A stretch of DNA of 43,095 nt from a virus: IMG/VR virus record IMGVR_UViG_3300044644_000409, positions 1-43,095 of that record; one strand, given 5' to 3'. The first letter of the stretch is position 1. Each line of letters opens with the position of its first letter. The translations under genes and the position numbers were made by a program. Positions 11,694 through 35,803 of the stretch are shown here, piece after piece. Under the pieces are notes generated by a model. It had not been told where the DNA came from and did no database searches. It saw only the letters and a list, made by a program, of their open reading frames with translations.

Positions 11694-11899
11694 AAGATTC
11701 AATCATTATCCTAGCCCGAGAAAAGTCATTATCATTTAATGGCTACACCGAGGATGCCTTAGCCCTTGTTAATTCTTTGCGCGATGCGTATGGCACCACA
11801 AGTATGCCAAAAATGCTAAATGACTTTGTCTTCAATATTGAAGTGGCGCTGCAAAACGCCAATGTACTGGACGAAGACTTTAACGAGGTGGCAGCATGA
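11690..11899 (+). CDS. Hypothetical protein
   Basis: 69 residues beginning MKDSIIILAREKSLSFNG, then helical (EDALALVNSLRDAYG, FVFNIEVALQNANVL) with an acidic end. Coupled by ATGA overlaps to both neighbours. No family recognised. Confidence 0.68.
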   Translation: MKDSIIILAREKSLSFNGYTEDALALVNSLRDAYGTTSMPKMLNDFVFNIEVALQNANVLDEDFNEVAA

Positions 11900-12234
11900 A
11901 ACCATCCGAAGCATTCGCACTCGACACTTGGCTGAGTTATTACCCCGAGAACATGACCTACGACGAAATAATCGAGGCCATGACCGACCGCGCGCAAGCG
12001 CACAAGGCCGAATACATCGATGTATGGGAGATTGTGGAGGACCACGACTACCCCTACATAGCCCAACTTATAGAGGATGCAAAAGTCCATTTTGAGCAAA
12101 CCGCGCGGCTGGTGGTGACAGAATACAAAACCGCCCTGCAAGAACTGCTTAACTACACCGGCGGCTGGGATCTGACAGACGAAAGCCACCCCATATACAA
12201 AGCCCGCAAACTTTTGGAAAAGGTGCCAGCATGA
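11896..12234 (+). CDS. Hypothetical acidic protein
   Basis: 112 residues, acidic and mainly helical (PENMTYDEIIEAMTDRAQ; YIAQLIEDAKVHFEQTA; TEYKTALQELLNYTGGW). ATGA overlaps at both ends (11896-11899 and 12231-12234). Very acidic small early proteins sometimes act as DNA mimics or inhibitors, but nothing specific points to that here. Confidence 0.68.
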   Translation: MKPSEAFALDTWLSYYPENMTYDEIIEAMTDRAQAHKAEYIDVWEIVEDHDYPYIAQLIEDAKVHFEQTARLVVTEYKTALQELLNYTGGWDLTDESHPIYKARKLLEKVPA

Positions 12235-21270: not shown

Positions 21271-21280
21271 GTGTTCCTCC

Positions 21281-21323
21281 ATAACGTTATCGTCCATTCT
21301 AGCCATCTCCGAAGCTATGTCAA
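21281..21323 (-). promoter_or_regulatory. Leftward early promoter with palindromic operator
   Basis: On the leftward strand, TTGACA (21318-21323) and TAGAAT (21296-21301) are 16 nt apart, 6/6 and 5/6 matches to the sigma70 consensus. The expected start falls at about 21289, inside the palindrome ATAACGTTAT (21281-21290), the classic position for a repressor site. GGAGG and the ATG at 21270 follow immediately. It would transcribe the small-gene, ParB, helicase and primase operon down to 13612. Confidence 0.7.
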
Positions 21324-21372
21324 CAGGTATATTACTACACAACCTATCAGCCATATCATACAGCAAAAAGAA

Positions 21373-21680
21373 CCCAACCCGTTGACCCTCCCTCCCCCAA
21401 GGGGCGCAGAGTCAAGGCTCTTTACCAAGGCACTATGTCGGGTGTTAACCAACTACGGGTAGCCATCTCCGCCCTCCCCTGGAATCCCGATCCTCCGAGC
21501 TCTCGCCTGTTGGTCGATCATCTCCCAGCCAGTGGGGTATGTGTCATGAATGACAGCCTTGTATATCCCTTTCGCTTACGCTACTTGGGGGTGCGGGTCA
21601 CACCGAGGTTCTGTCTTTTCTTCCACGCGGGCGATACAACCCCTTACTGCGGATGGAGTCCGGCTGGGTTGTGGAGGCAC
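21373..21680 (-). ncRNA. Candidate structured non-coding region
   Basis: About 310 bp with no credible gene: the frames that cross it have no ribosome site or recognisable protein pattern. GC-richer than both flanks. Local stems: CCCC-AA-GGGG (21395-21404), AGAG/CTCT (21408-21421), TGTCAT-GA-ATGACA (21542-21555) inside a near-complete GGGATAT/ATACCCC stem, and ACAACCC/GGGTTGT (21636-21642 with 21666-21672) enclosing CGGA/TCCG. Strand is uncertain; both flanking genes are leftward. It may be an RNA, a leader or a DNA site such as an origin. No known RNA family could be matched by eye. Confidence 0.4.
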
Positions 21681-21684
21681 AAAT

Positions 21685-21770
21685 AAAAAAACCGTTAATG
21701 AAACCCCGGTGGAAGAACCCAAGTCTTGTGGACAGAGGCTACCCCAAAGGGGTCGGGATTTCATTAACGG
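21685..21770 (-). terminator. Long-stem intrinsic terminator (leftward)
   Basis: Arms at 21754-21770 and 21692-21708 form a 17-bp stem (one G-T pair), closed by a 45-nt loop with an inner CCCC-TTT-GGGG hairpin. Seven T follow on the leftward strand (21685-21691). There is no T-tract on the opposite strand. It would end the candidate small RNA and also any readthrough from the PP-loop gene at 21906. Confidence 0.75.
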
Positions 21771-21801
21771 CTCTCATCGCTGCGGCTTCCACACCTAGCT
21801 G
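21685..21801 (-). ncRNA. Candidate phage small RNA or attenuator transcript
   Basis: A predicted leftward promoter (21808-21835) starts transcription near 21801. A long-stem terminator ends it at 21685, giving a transcript of about 117 nt. The 5' part contains GTGGAAG, complementary to CTTCCAC in the terminator loop, so an alternative pairing could compete with the terminator. A 12-codon frame (MRAVNEIPTPLG, 21739-21777) starts before the stem and ends inside it, so transcription attenuation by a leader peptide is also possible. It is either a free-standing small RNA or the attenuated leader of downstream sequence. Confidence 0.5.
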
Positions 21802-21807
21802 GATCGG

Positions 21808-21835
21808 ATTTTACACAAATTTCAGACTGTGTCAA
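21808..21835 (-). promoter_or_regulatory. Predicted sigma70 promoter upstream of candidate small RNA
   Basis: TTGACA (21830-21835) and TAAAAT (21808-21813) spaced by 16 nt on the leftward strand. The decamer GTTTGACACA around the -35 is repeated 44 bp upstream (21872-21881), four helical turns away, and CATGTA...TACATG arms lie between, suggesting a regulator site. Confidence 0.6.
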
Positions 21836-21905
21836 ACGTTGTCATGTATAAAAAATGGGAAATTTTGTACATGTGTCAAACATCATGTCTACTTATTGCC
21901 GGTTT

Positions 21906-27698: not shown

Positions 27699-27712
27699 CC
27701 ATAACGTTATGG
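27699..27712. promoter_or_regulatory. 14-bp palindrome CCATAACGTTATGG between convergent operons
   Basis: Perfect palindrome at the exact meeting point of the rightward recombination operon and the leftward late operon; it contains the TAA stop of the polyvalent protein gene. It shares 14 nt (ATAACGTTATGGAG) with the copy at the leftward early promoter. No hairpin loop or T-tract, so it is more likely a protein-binding site than a terminator. Confidence 0.55.
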
Positions 27713-30700
27713 AGCTGCCTGCTTCTTGATGGCCTTGCGGGCTGCTTCAGCTTGCTCTGCCACCGAGGACATGAGCTGTCTGAGACGGTTGATTTCGTCT
27801 TTCTTCTCTTCCCCCGTCATGGCTGTGTACGCTGGGTTTGAAACCATTTGAATCTGTTGGCGAATGTTGGCCAAGTTCTTGGACGTCTTGTCGTAGAACT
27901 TCTGCAAGCTCACCTCGGTACCCTTTTCCTCCAACAAATCCAAGACCTTTTCAGACTGGCCAAGCTCAGCGTAGTGACGCATGTCGGCATAAGCCTGCTG
28001 GATCTTTTTATTGTTTTGGTAGAAGTCAGTCAGATATGTGGACTGGTTTGTTGGCAGGTTCTCTATGAATCCCAAGGACAGCATCTTGGTCTTGTTGACG
28101 TCAGGATACACGCCGTCATTAAATGGCTGAACGGCATAGCCTGAAGACGCTGCGATGGTGCCACCCAGCCAGCCCATGTAGGCGCGGATCATGTAGTCGA
28201 TTTGGATTGGAGACAGCTCTGTTGACTCTCCGGTAACCGTAGACATGGCCTTGCTTACGGAGCCCAGAGCTACTGCTATGGGGCTTGTGGAGTCTGTTTT
28301 GCGTTCCTGCTTCGACAAACGCTCCATGCCGGCAGTCTCGATTGGCGCACTGGTGAACGGATTCTTGTTGGCGTAGATGTCGACCATTGGCTTGAAGAGC
28401 TGCGGCACAGGGTTCATGGAGAATGTCTGCCACACCATGCGACCCAATGAATCAGTGAAGCGCGATGTCTCAACATCCTTGTCGACCATCTGCTCAACAG
28501 TGCGCTCCACCAAGGTGGCAATGGCGCCAGTCTCGAACGGCTTGGGCACGCGGATGGCAATGTCGGTGCCAGGTATCTTGCCCCACCAGAATGCATCACG
28601 ATCCCACTGCTCGCGCTTCTTGAAGTCTTCGTCGTCCTTGTTGGCCAAGTACAGGGCAATTGACGCCAAGGCCACCGCACCTGTAACGGAGACAAACGAC
28701 TTGGTCTTTTGAGCATCAGTTTGATCGATCTCTTTGCCGGTGATGCTGTTGTAGAACACCCGCACGGTAGGCACAACGCCATCCCTGCCCAGCTTGTACA
28801 GACCCTGTGCGCGGGCATTGAAGAACGGAACAGTGGCAGCCACAAAGCGAATGGCATTGGAAGATCCGGAGGCGGAGAAGTTCAACAAGTCGCGAGCGGC
28901 AAAGCTTGCTTCCAAGTGAGTCTTACCGCTCTCCATCAATTGCTTGTACAGGGCAATCCTGTTTGCATTCTCAGCCTTGTTACCCAAGTCCTCGTAATAG
29001 CGCCACGACTTAGTAAACATGCTCTTGACCTTTTCGGGAGTATCAAGAATAGTGGCCTCGTCTACACCGCGATCAATCAACTTTTTAATTGCTTGCGCAC
29101 GATCACCCTCTAGCACTGTGCCAAAGTTAAATACAGCGCCGCCAGCCAATGCTGATCTGTAGATTGGAGAGCCCCTGCCTGAGTCATACAGGCCGCTATA
29201 CACGTTCTTCACAAGGTTGCCACTCAAGTCCGACAGTGCGGCAGACTGGATGGATTCCCTGATTAAGTTGTATGCCTTGAATGTAGGAGACATCGTCACA
29301 CCAAAGCGCAACAGGTCTTTGAATGGCCGCATGATATCCACAGCAAGGCCGCGTGGGCCTAGCTCTGTAATCATGCCAATCGACTCAAGCAACAGCGGGT
29401 CATTGATATGGTGATAGGTGGTCACGCCATCGACCTGCGTCTTGACGATATCTTTGGAACCTGGCTTGGACTCGGTCATGGATACCAACTCATCTTCGCC
29501 GGCTGCGTTTGCGCGAACCTGAACTAGCTTGCCGTCGCCAACTATGTTGCCCGTAATAGAGTTAACCACGCGGCCATTCTTACCGTCCGCATCAGTCCTC
29601 CACTCCATGCCGGGCTTGAGCGCAGGCACAACAACAGCCTGCTCGCGGGCATCTTCCAAGATAGTGTTAGACGCTAAGTTCTTCATGGACGCAGACAGGA
29701 TGTGGCTCCAGTTGCGCAAGGTGTTCTCCATCAGGTCGCCAAACGGCTTGTCGCTTTGGCCTTTGAGCATCTTGGAAAACTGCTGATTGGACAGGCGTGA
29801 CGCCGTACGGATGGATTCGAGTTGGCCATCTTCCATCGCCCGATAGAACGGGATGTAGAACATGTCGTTTGAAAAGCGTTGATAGGCTTGACGATCAATC
29901 AGGCCATTCATCAGCGCCACATTCAGCACCGACCTGTTCAGCGCCATTACGTCTCTACGGGCTTGCTCATAGACCTCTGCGCGTGGCCGACCATTGATAG
30001 TTCCCTTGACGAAGTCATTCTTCTTGGCAACCAAGTCATCCAGTCTTGAAGAGCGCTTCTCGTCAGGCAGATTTGCTTCGCGGCTCAGTGCCATCCAAAC
30101 TTGCCAGCGATCCAGCTCCTGCCCCAAAGGCTTGACCGAATCAATGAAGCCCTTCTTGTTCTCGTCAGCAATGACATCAAGAGCGCCTTGGTTCATGGTC
30201 ACATGGCCGTGATAAAGCAGGTTCTCCAACGCTCCGCCGGTATCTTTGGACAGCGTGGCCTGCATGTGCCCCATAGGTGAGTAGGTCTTGGCTGAGCGGA
30301 ATTCATCCACAGTCTTTTGGGCAAGCCACTCAAACGCTCGGCCTTTGTTTTGCTCCATGCGATCAATGATCGTCAGGTTGGGCGCAAAGAAGTTCTTGTT
30401 GACATCGGCCACGACATCTTCATCCAAGCCTTCAAATGCCTTGACGTTCATGGGCGCACGCGTTTGCAGCACCTCTTGCGCTTTGGCCTTAATCGTTTCC
30501 TTCATGAAGTTCAATTCCATCTGGTCTGATACCAGTGGCATTTGCATGCTTGTGTCTGGGGTTGCGTCAATCGCAGCATCGGTAACGCGATCAAGGTATT
30601 TCTTGAGCGTTTCGTTGGGCAAGTACTTGGAGCCGCGCAGCTTGGCATAGAACGCCTTCATGGCAGCGCCCAGCTTGGCAAAAAACTTCTCGACAACGGT

Positions 30701-33700
30701 CAGCGGCTTTTGTTGGGTAGTTGCCCACTTGGATACTTGGTCTGCGTACCACTCAGCAAACGATGACCAATATTGTTGGTAATTAGAAACATTTTCAATT
30801 GGCATGTCTGGCGCAACAGTTGTTTTACCAGTGGCGCGCGCACGCAATTCTTGCACGTACTCCGAAGCAGACATGCCTTTGGTTTTCTTCAGCCAATCAC
30901 TATAAGCAACTTTGATGGCGTCCTTGGTTGATTTGCTTGCATCGTTGAACACCTCTTTCTCGTGGATGTGTCCAAGCTCATGAGCCAACACCTCAAGCAG
31001 TCTGGCCTTGCTTTGCTTGGGCTTAAACGCAATAACGTAATCCCCATTCTTCAGGCGCTGAGCATAGCCACCTGCCTCGTGCAATGAGCCTGCGCCAATG
31101 GTTGCTTGCTCGCCGGTAAACATCAAGCGGTTGGCAGCAGTATCCTCTACGGTGGTGAGATAGATATTGTTGTCCAACTTGAGCATCTTCTTCCAGCCGG
31201 CAAAAATGCCAGCTATCTCAGGAGAAATGCTTTGTGAGAACGCTACGCCGTCTTGGTCAAACTTAACGAACGGATCGTTTTTGTATCTTGCCGCGTCTTC
31301 AGCTTTCCATTTGTCAATGGCGTCTTTGATTTGAGTCTTTTCTTTTTCGGAAAAGATCTTGCCGGTGTAGTCTTCAATATTCACCAGTATGCGATTGTCC
31401 TTTTTGAACGCTCGATAAATTGGCTCATAGTTCAAGTTAAAGTTTCTGTATACCCCGATGTCTCCATCTTGGTAAATGACATCTCCGCCAAATTGTTTGA
31501 CTGAGTCGTCCTTTTCTTTAATTTGCGCAGGCGTAGCATTACGCTCAACCATGTCTTTCATGTACATGAAATCTTCGCGTTCGCCAAACTTGACGTTCTT
31601 GGCCAACAAGAAACGGCCAATCTGAAACACTTCATCAGCAGACAGTACAGGCTTCCTTGTTTCGCGGTCATAGAAGTATGAATGACGCAATGGATCAAGG
31701 CTAACTTGAGTCCAAGCTGGATCATTCAGGTGCTTCAGTACGTCAGCATAGACCTTGCCAGGGGACGCGGGCTTCCATATGCCTTCAGCGGTTTGCTGCG
31801 GCTTCTTTGTATCCTTGCCCATAGCAATCTTCATTGCCGCCTTTTCAGATCGGATAACAAACTGGACATCAGTTATATGAGCCGCGCTTGCATAGCCGAT
31901 TGGAGAGCTGGGATCGTTCTCTGGATGGATGGCCACAACGCTACCATTTATACCAAGCGCATCACCTCGATTTAGTGCGTTGATATCCATGCGCAAACCA
32001 ACCTTGGTGCCGGCAGGTATCACAGGGTTAATCTTTTCCTTTTGCGCCTTATTCAAAACCTTGGCCATTGCATCGGTAGTAAGAGGCGGCTCAGGGTTTG
32101 GCACCTTGCCAATTGGCTTGTATGCGTCAACGTACTTGTCGTACTGGGCTTTGTTGATTCGGCCAGCGGCAAGCTCACGCGCAGCCATTACCACCTGTGG
32201 GTGACGGCCCCTGATGGGCTTGTAGTCATCGGGGATGGGCAGGACTGGGGGCAGCTCTTTCTCTGCTTTAGGCTCTTCTGGTTTCTTTCCAAATCTTTCT
32301 TGCTCGCGATAGATTGCTTTATTGAGAAATTCGCCCTTTTCATTTGCTACCGCATAGCCGTCACTCTCGGGAATTTTTACGGCCTTGTGTTCTTTACCAG
32401 TCGCCTTTGTCTCATTCAAAGCCGCAGCTTCTACCATTGCTTTGTCGCGGGTGGTAGAGTCTTTTGAAGGTATAAATCTCTTTAAGGCAAGGTTAATTTC
32501 GCCTTTGGCCGTGCCAGTTTCAATAGGCGTTGCATACCAAAGCTTTTTATCCGCATCCCACTTTGCCCCGCGAGCTTTTACAAAATCTTTATCTTTAAAT
32601 GGAACGAACAAATATGTTCTATCTTCTTGCGGCTCTGCTTTTGGCTCGGGCTTCTTCTCTTCAGGAGCGGCAAAGATATCCTTCTGACCTTGAGAGGCAG
32701 CCACATCAGCAGGTCGATTGCTTCCGGTCAGAGTGAACTCACCAACTTCGGCATCAGCCTTGGCCTTAGCCTCTTCCTCTTTGAAAGCTTTCTCTTCTGC
32801 TGCGGCACGTTTCTCAGCTTCTGCCTGCTTGGCTCTAACCTCGTCGGCAGTTTCAGTCTTTAGCTTGAACTCTTCTGTTACCGGCTTGCGCACCAGCACC
32901 TTGTCATACCCAGCCTCTTGCTGCTCAAAACCTGCCTTTTTGTAAAAGCTTACAAGTTGGGCAAGATCCATAGCGCCAGCCTCTAATGGGGTTGGCTCAA
33001 CATATAAAGTTTGACCCTTCTTGTCCGCAATATCCATTAAGGTTTTTAAAGCGGCAGCAGCTTTGCCTTGCTTCCTTGCCTCCGGATCAACCATCAATGA
33101 CTCAATAACGATGTCTTCAGGCTCGCCTTGGAAGACGCCAACATCGCGCTTTCCTGGCTCCGCGTAGATCACCCTGCCTTGACCAAGAGCTATGCGAACA
33201 CCATCCTTTTCCCATGTTGGGTGCCATTGACCACCCTTATCTACATACACCCTTGGATTTGGCTGCTCTTTTACTCGCGGAACATGCAGTCTTTCAAATC
33301 CTTCTTGATCTAAAAAATCAGAAAGTTTCTCAGGCTTTACTTCGCGCTCTGCTGGTTCAGCTTTCGCTCTTTCGCTTGGAGCAGCAGCTCTTTCCTCGCC
33401 TTTGGCGGGAGCTTTCTCAGCAGCGAGATCAATTTCTCTTTGCTCATCGGAGGCAATTTGGAGTTCATAGTTGATGTCCTTTAATCCTAGATGCAGATCA
33501 ATCTGCTTTTCAATTTCATCCTTGGCGTAACCAAGTTCTCTCAGCGCCTGATTGGTTTCTTCGGTGAGGTAATCTTTGCGGCGTAGCTTTTCTTTGACGT
33601 GCTCGACCGCATCCTTCAGGTCAAACCCAGGATTGTCATGTCGGTTGTTGTACGGCAGGAATTCATCAAGCTTTCCATCCGCCACGACGTCATCCAAAAT

Positions 33701-35803
33701 AGCTCCGCGTCTTCCAGCCTTGGCGCGCAACAGTCTGTACTCTTTGTCGGGACTGATGTCGTTTACCTCAGATGGATCTAAGGTGCCGCGCAACGCCTGC
33801 CACAAGCTCCAGCTACCGCGCTTCTCTTTGTTCATTGCCGCAGTGATGCCCTTTGACTCTTTGAGCATTTGCGCAGTTTCTGCCTCAAACTCTTTTGAGA
33901 CAGGCATGGGCTTGCCTTCGGTAGGCGTAGCTTCCTGAAACTCAGGAGGCTCTTTGCTCATCAATCTAATTGACAGCTCTTTGGCGCGCTCCTGTAGGGT
34001 GGCGTATTCTTTGCCTGCCTTAGAGCGGAGTGACGGCACATTGCCTTTGTTCTCCTCGCGCATCATGGTCATCTTTGCAACCGCGTCAGCGCGCTCAGCC
34101 AAAATCCTTTGGCGTTCATCCATTGGCTCAGTTTCGGTTGGCTTGACAACCTCTTCCGAAACAGGCTCTTCCTTGATTGGCAGTTGGGCCTTGGATACAC
34201 CCTTGGGCGCGGCGGCAGCTTTAGGGGCAGCAGGCTCTTTGCCCTCTGGCGTCATGCCAAGCTGCGTTTCAATAGGCACATACGGCATGAAGCCCAGCTT
34301 CTCAAATTCCTTCTGCTGAAGCATTACATTTTGAATTGGGTCTGAGCTGTATTCGGTATTGCGAATCTCGTCGACCTTGGCCTGCAAATCAACTTTCTGC
34401 TGGCGCTCCTGATCCGCTTGACTCTCGCGGACATTTCTCATCATTAACTCATTGATGCCACCAGGACCACCCGTGAATCCAGGCGCTTCGGCCATGCGAC
34501 CTTGGATCTCAGCAGCTTTCATCTGAGCTTGCTGCTCAGGGGTGATGATCTCAATAGGCGGCGCGGGCTCTTGAACTTCAGGCATCTCACCCAGCTTGGC
34601 CAACTCAGCAGTCTTGCGACGCTGGTTCTCAAGAGGGTCTGCATGGAACTGAGTCGCCTCAACTTCCTGAATCTTTTCAAGTCTTGCCTGCTCCAATGCG
34701 GCAGCTTCAGCCTCACGCTGATCGCGGGCGGCGCTTAGAAGTTCAGCATTTGGATCTGTGACGCCTGTGAACCCAGGCATATTGCGGGCACGCTCCATGG
34801 CGGCTTCGCGTCTTTGGCCAGCAGCCAATAACTCTTGTGCCTTGGCATCTTCCGCTGCTTGAATGGCTCTCGCCTCATCGGCCAAACGTTTGCTCTCAGC
34901 CCTTTGAGCTGCTTGCTCTTTGCCTTGTTCGCGGGATCTCTCAACATATCTACCAGCAGGAGCCAAGGCTCCGCCCAGTACAGCTCCGCCAACAAAACTG
35001 TCAAAGTATTCGTCTCGCGCTTTCTCATCATTGATAGCAAGACCAGCTTGCAACCTTTCCAGAACCTGTTGACCTGCCTCGGTCAAACCTTCCATGCCAG
35101 CAGCTTTGCCGGTGGCCAATGTGTAATCAGCCGTGATCTTGCCAACAGACTGCTTTGTAGCGTCTAACAGTAACTTCTCGGGAACCTCTTTGCCGGCGGC
35201 GGCGAAGATGCCACGAATACCTGGCAGCAGCCTGAATGCAAACACATCCAATGCGGCCTGTGGGATTGCTGCGGCAGCCGCAGAACCCAACTCTGTTTGT
35301 CCAAGAGTCTTGCCCTCTGCCATTTGGCGAGATAGGTTTGAGCCTGTGAACTGAGCGGCAGATGTCAGGCCGGCAGCTATAGGAGCAACAATCGCTGCAC
35401 TGGGTGCGGCCAAGGCACCAACACCAGCAGCCACGGGCGCGGCCATGTATGGAAGCGATCCACCGAACAATTCAAGAGCCTTGGTTACAGGAGCTTCACC
35501 AAAAGTCTCCGTTGGCTTGAATGTCTTTTGTCGGTAGGCTTCTTGTTCTTGGATGTACTTATTGGCCGCAGCCTCATCCATCAAGCCCGTCCTACCCGCA
35601 AGGGCGGCAATGTCAGATTTCAGTGAAGCTAGTCCAGCTTTGGACGCAGCTATAAAACCGCTTTCTGGTTTTGGTGCTGCTGCTTGCGCGGCAACGTGAC
35701 GCTTAACAGATGCAATGAGTGCGCCTTCCGAAGCGTCATCCGGCCCCTCAACATCATAGATCCGTCCGTCCGGGCCTTGTACGCTGTAAATTCGCATCGA
35801 CAA
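27707..35803 (-). CDS. Giant polyvalent virion protein
   Basis: 2698 residues, 19% of the window. In order: an N-terminal segment RIYSVQGPDGRIYDVEGP; an Ala/Gly-rich hydrophobic region (about 100-165); long charged linkers; a GNAT-like acetyltransferase domain (about 850-970, with ESLMVDPEARKQGKAAAAL); a DUF5710-like domain (about 1061-1113, YLFVPFKDKDFVKARGAKWD); a zincin metallopeptidase motif LAHELGHIHE (His1608-Gly-His) with EWYAD (about 1684); a C-terminal region with VAATVPFFNARAQGLYKLG (about 2314) and a hydrophobic segment near 2366-2385. This fits phage large polyvalent proteins, thought to enter the cell with DNA. The multidomain reading is strong; substrates are unknown. Confidence 0.85.
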   Translation of the reverse strand: MSMRIYSVQGPDGRIYDVEGPDDASEGALIASVKRHVAAQAAAPKPESGFIAASKAGLASLKSDIAALAGRTGLMDEAAANKYIQEQEAYRQKTFKPTETFGEAPVTKALELFGGSLPYMAAPVAAGVGALAAPSAAIVAPIAAGLTSAAQFTGSNLSRQMAEGKTLGQTELGSAAAAAIPQAALDVFAFRLLPGIRGIFAAAGKEVPEKLLLDATKQSVGKITADYTLATGKAAGMEGLTEAGQQVLERLQAGLAINDEKARDEYFDSFVGGAVLGGALAPAGRYVERSREQGKEQAAQRAESKRLADEARAIQAAEDAKAQELLAAGQRREAAMERARNMPGFTGVTDPNAELLSAARDQREAEAAALEQARLEKIQEVEATQFHADPLENQRRKTAELAKLGEMPEVQEPAPPIEIITPEQQAQMKAAEIQGRMAEAPGFTGGPGGINELMMRNVRESQADQERQQKVDLQAKVDEIRNTEYSSDPIQNVMLQQKEFEKLGFMPYVPIETQLGMTPEGKEPAAPKAAAAPKGVSKAQLPIKEEPVSEEVVKPTETEPMDERQRILAERADAVAKMTMMREENKGNVPSLRSKAGKEYATLQERAKELSIRLMSKEPPEFQEATPTEGKPMPVSKEFEAETAQMLKESKGITAAMNKEKRGSWSLWQALRGTLDPSEVNDISPDKEYRLLRAKAGRRGAILDDVVADGKLDEFLPYNNRHDNPGFDLKDAVEHVKEKLRRKDYLTEETNQALRELGYAKDEIEKQIDLHLGLKDINYELQIASDEQREIDLAAEKAPAKGEERAAAPSERAKAEPAEREVKPEKLSDFLDQEGFERLHVPRVKEQPNPRVYVDKGGQWHPTWEKDGVRIALGQGRVIYAEPGKRDVGVFQGEPEDIVIESLMVDPEARKQGKAAAALKTLMDIADKKGQTLYVEPTPLEAGAMDLAQLVSFYKKAGFEQQEAGYDKVLVRKPVTEEFKLKTETADEVRAKQAEAEKRAAAEEKAFKEEEAKAKADAEVGEFTLTGSNRPADVAASQGQKDIFAAPEEKKPEPKAEPQEDRTYLFVPFKDKDFVKARGAKWDADKKLWYATPIETGTAKGEINLALKRFIPSKDSTTRDKAMVEAAALNETKATGKEHKAVKIPESDGYAVANEKGEFLNKAIYREQERFGKKPEEPKAEKELPPVLPIPDDYKPIRGRHPQVVMAARELAAGRINKAQYDKYVDAYKPIGKVPNPEPPLTTDAMAKVLNKAQKEKINPVIPAGTKVGLRMDINALNRGDALGINGSVVAIHPENDPSSPIGYASAAHITDVQFVIRSEKAAMKIAMGKDTKKPQQTAEGIWKPASPGKVYADVLKHLNDPAWTQVSLDPLRHSYFYDRETRKPVLSADEVFQIGRFLLAKNVKFGEREDFMYMKDMVERNATPAQIKEKDDSVKQFGGDVIYQDGDIGVYRNFNLNYEPIYRAFKKDNRILVNIEDYTGKIFSEKEKTQIKDAIDKWKAEDAARYKNDPFVKFDQDGVAFSQSISPEIAGIFAGWKKMLKLDNNIYLTTVEDTAANRLMFTGEQATIGAGSLHEAGGYAQRLKNGDYVIAFKPKQSKARLLEVLAHELGHIHEKEVFNDASKSTKDAIKVAYSDWLKKTKGMSASEYVQELRARATGKTTVAPDMPIENVSNYQQYWSSFAEWYADQVSKWATTQQKPLTVVEKFFAKLGAAMKAFYAKLRGSKYLPNETLKKYLDRVTDAAIDATPDTSMQMPLVSDQMELNFMKETIKAKAQEVLQTRAPMNVKAFEGLDEDVVADVNKNFFAPNLTIIDRMEQNKGRAFEWLAQKTVDEFRSAKTYSPMGHMQATLSKDTGGALENLLYHGHVTMNQGALDVIADENKKGFIDSVKPLGQELDRWQVWMALSREANLPDEKRSSRLDDLVAKKNDFVKGTINGRPRAEVYEQARRDVMALNRSVLNVALMNGLIDRQAYQRFSNDMFYIPFYRAMEDGQLESIRTASRLSNQQFSKMLKGQSDKPFGDLMENTLRNWSHILSASMKNLASNTILEDAREQAVVVPALKPGMEWRTDADGKNGRVVNSITGNIVGDGKLVQVRANAAGEDELVSMTESKPGSKDIVKTQVDGVTTYHHINDPLLLESIGMITELGPRGLAVDIMRPFKDLLRFGVTMSPTFKAYNLIRESIQSAALSDLSGNLVKNVYSGLYDSGRGSPIYRSALAGGAVFNFGTVLEGDRAQAIKKLIDRGVDEATILDTPEKVKSMFTKSWRYYEDLGNKAENANRIALYKQLMESGKTHLEASFAARDLLNFSASGSSNAIRFVAATVPFFNARAQGLYKLGRDGVVPTVRVFYNSITGKEIDQTDAQKTKSFVSVTGAVALASIALYLANKDDEDFKKREQWDRDAFWWGKIPGTDIAIRVPKPFETGAIATLVERTVEQMVDKDVETSRFTDSLGRMVWQTFSMNPVPQLFKPMVDIYANKNPFTSAPIETAGMERLSKQERKTDSTSPIAVALGSVSKAMSTVTGESTELSPIQIDYMIRAYMGWLGGTIAASSGYAVQPFNDGVYPDVNKTKMLSLGFIENLPTNQSTYLTDFYQNNKKIQQAYADMRHYAELGQSEKVLDLLEEKGTEVSLQKFYDKTSKNLANIRQQIQMVSNPAYTAMTGEEKKDEINRLRQLMSSVAEQAEAARKAIKKQAAP

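Follow-up and report, generated by a model that had tools for sequence, protein, structure and literature searches.

What is encoded by the compact arrangement of promoter, long stem, and T-run that lies between the genes of this phage genome? The window, by which we mean the whole stretch analyzed here (43,095 nucleotides; positions 1 to 43,095 of IMG/VR virus record IMGVR_UViG_3300044644_000409), was the subject of an original prediction of a ~117-nt leftward unit with its own promoter and a long-stem terminator, in the only long gene-free stretch, giving either a phage small RNA or a leader-peptide attenuator. The promoter, unit, and terminator-like end lie where they had been placed (the stem at 21772-21755 / 21707-21692 and seven T at 21691-21685). 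Positions 21272-21905 are indeed without genes, but they are not otherwise empty; beyond the predicted RNA, which we call module 1, most of the remainder is occupied by a second structured domain, module 2 (~21607-21378). The features are as follows.

21808..21835, minus strand: sigma-70-like promoter TTGACA-16-TAAAAT (consensus match; at a nearly fixed distance from module 1 in homologues)
21685..21801, minus strand: module 1, predicted RNA of ~117 nt (103 bits, E 1e-22 with covariance model R1, which has the window itself among its seed sequences; ~130 homologous loci)
21779..21799, minus strand: P0, a 5′ hairpin whose loop contains the P1 5′ strand (modest support, from arm complementarity)
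21786..21792, minus strand: P1 5′ strand, GUGGAAG (pseudoknot)
21755..21772, minus strand: P2 5′ strand, terminator stem (helices 2 and 3; at least 99% paired, seven pairs changed on both sides)
21741..21753, minus strand: P3 hairpin, ACCCC-UUU-GGGGU (invariant in alignment A1, altered in divergent members)
21716..21740, minus strand: P4 hairpin, variable and missing from short members (helices 5 and 6 of the A1 structure)
21709..21715, minus strand: P1 3′ strand, CUUCCAC, 1 nt from the P2 3′ strand (covariation)
21692..21707, minus strand: P2 3′ strand, of near-constant length
21685..21691, minus strand: U7 run after P2, intrinsic-terminator-like (T-run conserved)
21608..21684, minus strand: linker or first hairpins of module 2, with a CGGACUCCAUCCG hairpin common in homologues
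21378..21607, minus strand: module 2, second conserved structured RNA domain (nhmmer homologues and compensatory changes)

Homologues of module 1 were sought with a pattern taken from both stem ends with a free centre (24 IMG/VR stretches, 12 with the complete unit and the rest chance-like), a conserved-centre pattern, CCCGACCCC-N3-7-GGGGTAGC (50 stretches), and a pattern spanning the 3′ strands of P1 and P2 (118 stretches). Covariance model R1 found module 1 again in the fetched loci and also matched L026 and, more divergently, L057, L061, and L070, all of them loci with near relatives of the PAPS-reductase gene that neighbors module 1 in the window. Including the window the loci number ~130, and every one lies in a contig of phage or virus, from IMG/VR except for one GenBank phage record, the environmental assembly MW202545.1; later counts are based on 97 unique element sequences. 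Module 1 occurs once per record in 24 phage records of 43-72 kb; second R1 matches within a record proved to be the opposite strand of the near-palindrome rather than extra copies. Core-pattern matches in bacterial genomes amounted to 109 stretches, and none of the 100 tested with R1 is a member (best E 0.02); R1 had no match in 369 genomes from the class of a Burkholderiaceae MAG, a search run without a positive control. The window matched no phage record by DNA similarity. Neither module 1 nor the module 2 of the window has a match among the Rfam 15 families, and a mir-191 match (E 0.064), a long hairpin far under the family cut-off, was set aside as chance.

Compensatory changes among homologues had been named beforehand as the check on the proposed RNA, and they were found. 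In A1, an alignment of 39 sequences, 98.4% of cells in the whole structure, pseudoknot included, are paired, with 16 pairs changed on both sides. There are 135 cells changed on both sides, where shuffles give 47 and slid controls never more than 12, and the covariation score is 0.286 versus 0.142, these controls leaving the relatedness among sequences in place. Given how varied the P1 pairs are and how the slid controls came out, an artefact is an unlikely source of the covariation. The minimum free energy of 21802-21680 is −52.7 kcal/mol, against a shuffle mean of −33.5 (sd 3.9; z = −5.0), and none of 200 shuffles was as stable. From the covariation, module 1 is almost certainly a conserved structured phage RNA.

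The complementary segments GTGGAAG (21792-21786) and CTTCCAC (21715-21709) had been read as a competing fold. The segments are present, but they do not compete with the stem, since P1 and P2 both covary and have no nucleotide in common. P1 is paired in 97% of A1 cells, with both-side changes at four of its seven pairs, and is a perfect 7-bp Watson-Crick helix in 93 of the 99 unique elements taken with flanks, formed by more than 20 different sequence pairs (GTGAGAG/CTCTCAC, GTAGAAG/CTTCTAC, and GTAGTGG/CCACTAC among them). Because they have no base in common, P1 and P2 can coexist, and the order P1-5′, P2-5′, (P3, P4), P1-3′, P2-3′ predicts a pseudoknot. As the P1 5′ strand lies in the P0 loop, and P0 arm complementarity (14.9) exceeds that with swapped arms (13.25 ± 0.23, sd), P1 is probably a kissing contact between the P0 loop and the strand beside P2. 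We assume this pairing to be intramolecular, although it could also form between molecules.

The same helices bear on whether module 1 is a regulated attenuator, in which termination would be altered, and module 2 switched on at one infection stage, by the P0-P1 kissing contact itself or by a factor from phage or host. The layout of promoter, terminator, and second RNA is that of an attenuator, and P1 lies one nucleotide away from P2. An antiterminator helix overlapping the terminator was nonetheless rejected, as the covarying P1 has no base in common with P2; no helix was seen that would form at the expense of P2, there is no conserved peptide, and divergent members retain the fold without an obvious ligand-binding core. 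Module 1 thus resembles trp-leader-type attenuators in its promoter, terminator-like stem, and subsequent downstream unit, and differs from them in lacking a conserved peptide, with no mutually exclusive helices found. We consider regulated attenuation rather doubtful.

The leader-peptide form of attenuation, which was part of the original prediction, fares worse. Its 12-codon frame, ATGAGAGCC...GGGTAG, is present in the window and is not conserved in homologues; an ATG frame of at least eight codons occurs in only 34/97 unique elements, with differing peptides, and element lengths fall in all three classes mod 3. A conserved protein frame through the stem was not found, and both a leader peptide and a protein through the stem were rejected on the spread of lengths, the sparse frames, and the dissimilar peptides. 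It might instead be supposed that chance, or an ordinary terminator between genes that does nothing else, accounts for the arrangement: a window-only scan gave 12 promoter-like sites in the region versus 14.3 expected from shuffles, and terminator-like sites in the window were about equally common in shuffles in a simple scan, so that these elements, judged from the window by itself, would count for little. Against this stand the compensatory changes throughout and the conservation of the promoter; covariation refutes these readings, and we regard chance, an ordinary terminator, or a leader peptide as hardly credible.

In the window the promoter consists of TTGACA (21835-21830) and TAAAAT (21813-21808) on the minus strand, separated by a 16-nt spacer and matching 11/12 consensus positions; with the −10 element ending at 21808, the RNA is predicted to start near 21801. 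As expected of an intrinsically terminated small RNA, module 1 has a promoter of its own, putatively active and with a consensus match: a sigma-70-like promoter stands at a nearly fixed distance from module 1 in 107 of 110 distinct upstream regions of homologues, and the promoter score is at least 9 in 84/110, compared with ~1.5% of control 70-mers. A chance origin of the site at 21808..21835 is unlikely because of this conservation among homologues. Upstream of the promoter, 21815-21890 contains a repeated GTGTCAAAC and the dyad ATGTATAAAA..TTTTGTACAT, with an operator-like look. There is also a strong leftward promoter-like site, TTGACA-16-TAGAAT, at 21323-21296 (minus strand), past the RNA region and ahead of the next genes.

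The 3′ end likewise has the form of a small RNA, with a covarying stem followed by a U-run: every one of the 48 core-pattern loci has a T-run of 5-9 behind P2, and for most of them the T-run had played no part in recruitment. Both conserved signals, promoter and U-run, favor an RNA beginning at P0 and able to end at the U-run. A phage small RNA, the other product originally offered, thus has the support of the promoter, the compensatory changes, and the U-run, conserved across ~130 loci. Intrinsic terminators, however, do not usually have a stem as long as 16-18 bp that encloses a branched loop of over 40 nt.

A homologous and mostly non-coding region is found within 250 nt past the U-run in 81 of 82 non-redundant loci, and a stop-free plus-strand frame runs through the 260 nt downstream in only 8/82. 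Module 2 types fall into at least six classes across loci. For the window's module 2, nhmmer found eight homologues (L012, L020, L021, L023, L279, L286, L308, and L325); in eight sequences, 20 of 62 predicted pairs show compensatory changes, and the closing helices are CUCG..CGGG and UGACCC..GGGUCA. The support is comparative, in that the window's module 2 alone folds no better than its own shuffles (z = +0.2). A module 2 motif, GGAAGAAAA, was compared with the U-run for pairing. Phages of one group carry an additional long hairpin (GAGACTGGGA...TCCCAGTCTC, with GGGTTAGCGCC inside) between the U-run and module 2 (L012:2184-2290, L003, L007, L009, L013, L017, L021, and L023).

One module 2 class is Betaproteobacteria-1 (Rfam RF02932), which differs from the module 2 of the window; its Rfam model finds nothing in the window. 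In L125, L138, and L141 this model starts 7-20 nt past module 1, and Betaproteobacteria-1 also lies directly behind module 1 in L287 and MW202545.1 (coordinates L125:1476-1593, L138:6404-6521, L141:5765-5882, and MW202545.1:5829-5946). Such a gap leaves no room for a promoter between the modules, and the arrangement suggests that Betaproteobacteria-1 is often the second part of a module 1 transcription unit. Acidovorax phage AP1 (OM049504.1, host Paracidovorax oryzae) has Betaproteobacteria-1 at 11856-11979, 35 nt past the primase gene, where the record has no annotated feature, and module 1 has no match anywhere in that record; modules 1 and 2 are therefore separable. The primase and helicase of the window share 39% and 37% identity with those of AP1, and a betaproteobacterial host for the window phage is hinted at. 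On the minus strand, the window also carries an open reading frame of 2698 codons (27707-35803).

Module 1 has no constant companion among genes. Its neighbors in many loci are replication and recombination genes (exonuclease, helicase, ParB-like, primase, and resolvases), and in another group terminase genes lie next to it, with a 2OG-Fe(II) oxygenase downstream in some loci; no one gene consistently accompanies it, which makes it less likely that module 1 regulates a particular protein in cis. In 11 of 119 distinct loci, tRNA genes lie immediately upstream on the same strand, with none elsewhere in those loci; no tRNA or tmRNA was found in the window.

The comparisons thus give a predicted promoter, pseudoknot, stem, U-run, and downstream structured RNA, in one copy per phage, from sequence evidence; transcription, partial termination, and trans action we infer. 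We propose that a host-type promoter starts the RNA and that the P0 loop would pair with the strand beside P2 (P1, 7-10 bp), folding the RNA into a compact pseudoknot to which P3 and P4 add one or two hairpins. P2 and the U-run would act as an intrinsic terminator, so that the main product would be a stable RNA of ~117 nt, and some polymerases would read through to make module 2 from the same promoter (~310 nt here, with an end near 21372). Both RNAs may work in trans as structured RNAs, with module 1 as a constant head that would set the amount of a diverse tail RNA. A trans-acting RNA is favored because there is no consistent downstream protein gene and because the promoter and tail RNAs belong to the cassette. 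We regard this scheme, taken as a whole, as an evenly balanced proposition.

Since module 2 is near-obligatory and there is no room for its own promoter, termination would have to be partial, regulated, or absent, with P2 in the last case an internal helix of a long RNA. With module 2 so nearly obligatory, a free-standing small RNA is no better an account than a single long RNA or a dedicated regulator of module 2. On the long-RNA reading, one ornate RNA, ~430 nt long here, would have module 1 as its constant 5′ domain and a tail that varies between phages, with P2 and the U-run having a structural role and termination weak or absent. Besides the 81/82 loci with module 2 and no promoter between, the P2 strand (flanking base included) is 17-20 nt in 97/97 unique elements, also where P4 is missing, and is thus more rigid than a terminator requires; a single copy per phage, sometimes beside tRNA genes, is moreover the setting of GOLLD and ROOL (PMC12286853). 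The U-run kept right after a GC-based stem in every core-pattern locus is nonetheless terminator-like, and in AP1 a Betaproteobacteria-1 module exists without module 1. A single long RNA is possible, in our judgment, though on balance unlikely.

The phi29 pRNA is a ~120-nt phage RNA with loop-loop pairing between molecules; module 1 is of similar size and also has loop pairing, assumed here to be intramolecular where that of pRNA is intermolecular, and the phi29 pRNA Rfam model has no match in the window.

GOLLD and ROOL are phage-borne structured RNAs near tRNA islands, of unknown function, and in GOLLD a conserved region is joined to another that is conserved less well (PMC12286853). Module 1 is like them in being phage-borne, structured, and near tRNA genes in some phages; unlike them, its cassette is shorter, has its conserved part 5′, and ends in a terminator-like stem and U-run. 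Their Rfam models find nothing in the window at gathering score or at E ≤0.1, nor does the gene-free stretch yield a match at E ≤5. We speculate, as something of a long shot, that the module 1 and module 2 RNAs form a modular phage RNA machine, in which a constant, pseudoknotted head, its copies joinable via the kissing loop, would stand ahead of large, interchangeable ornate domains, comparable to and distinct from the GOLLD/ROOL cages.

That such a unit was not described holds for Rfam 15 and for the open-licence literature searched. The 2017 paper that reportedly defined Betaproteobacteria-1 may hold an earlier mention.

As far as these sources go, module 1 represents a family of phage-encoded non-coding RNAs that had not been catalogued before. 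It adds a compact, strongly covarying head domain common to phages with at least six tail RNAs, and Betaproteobacteria-1, an orphan Rfam RNA, is now placed in its putative transcription unit. The size of the ~117-nt pseudoknot RNA suits quick structural and mutational work, and with so small an element the role of such phage RNAs, and the control of their synthesis, become testable.
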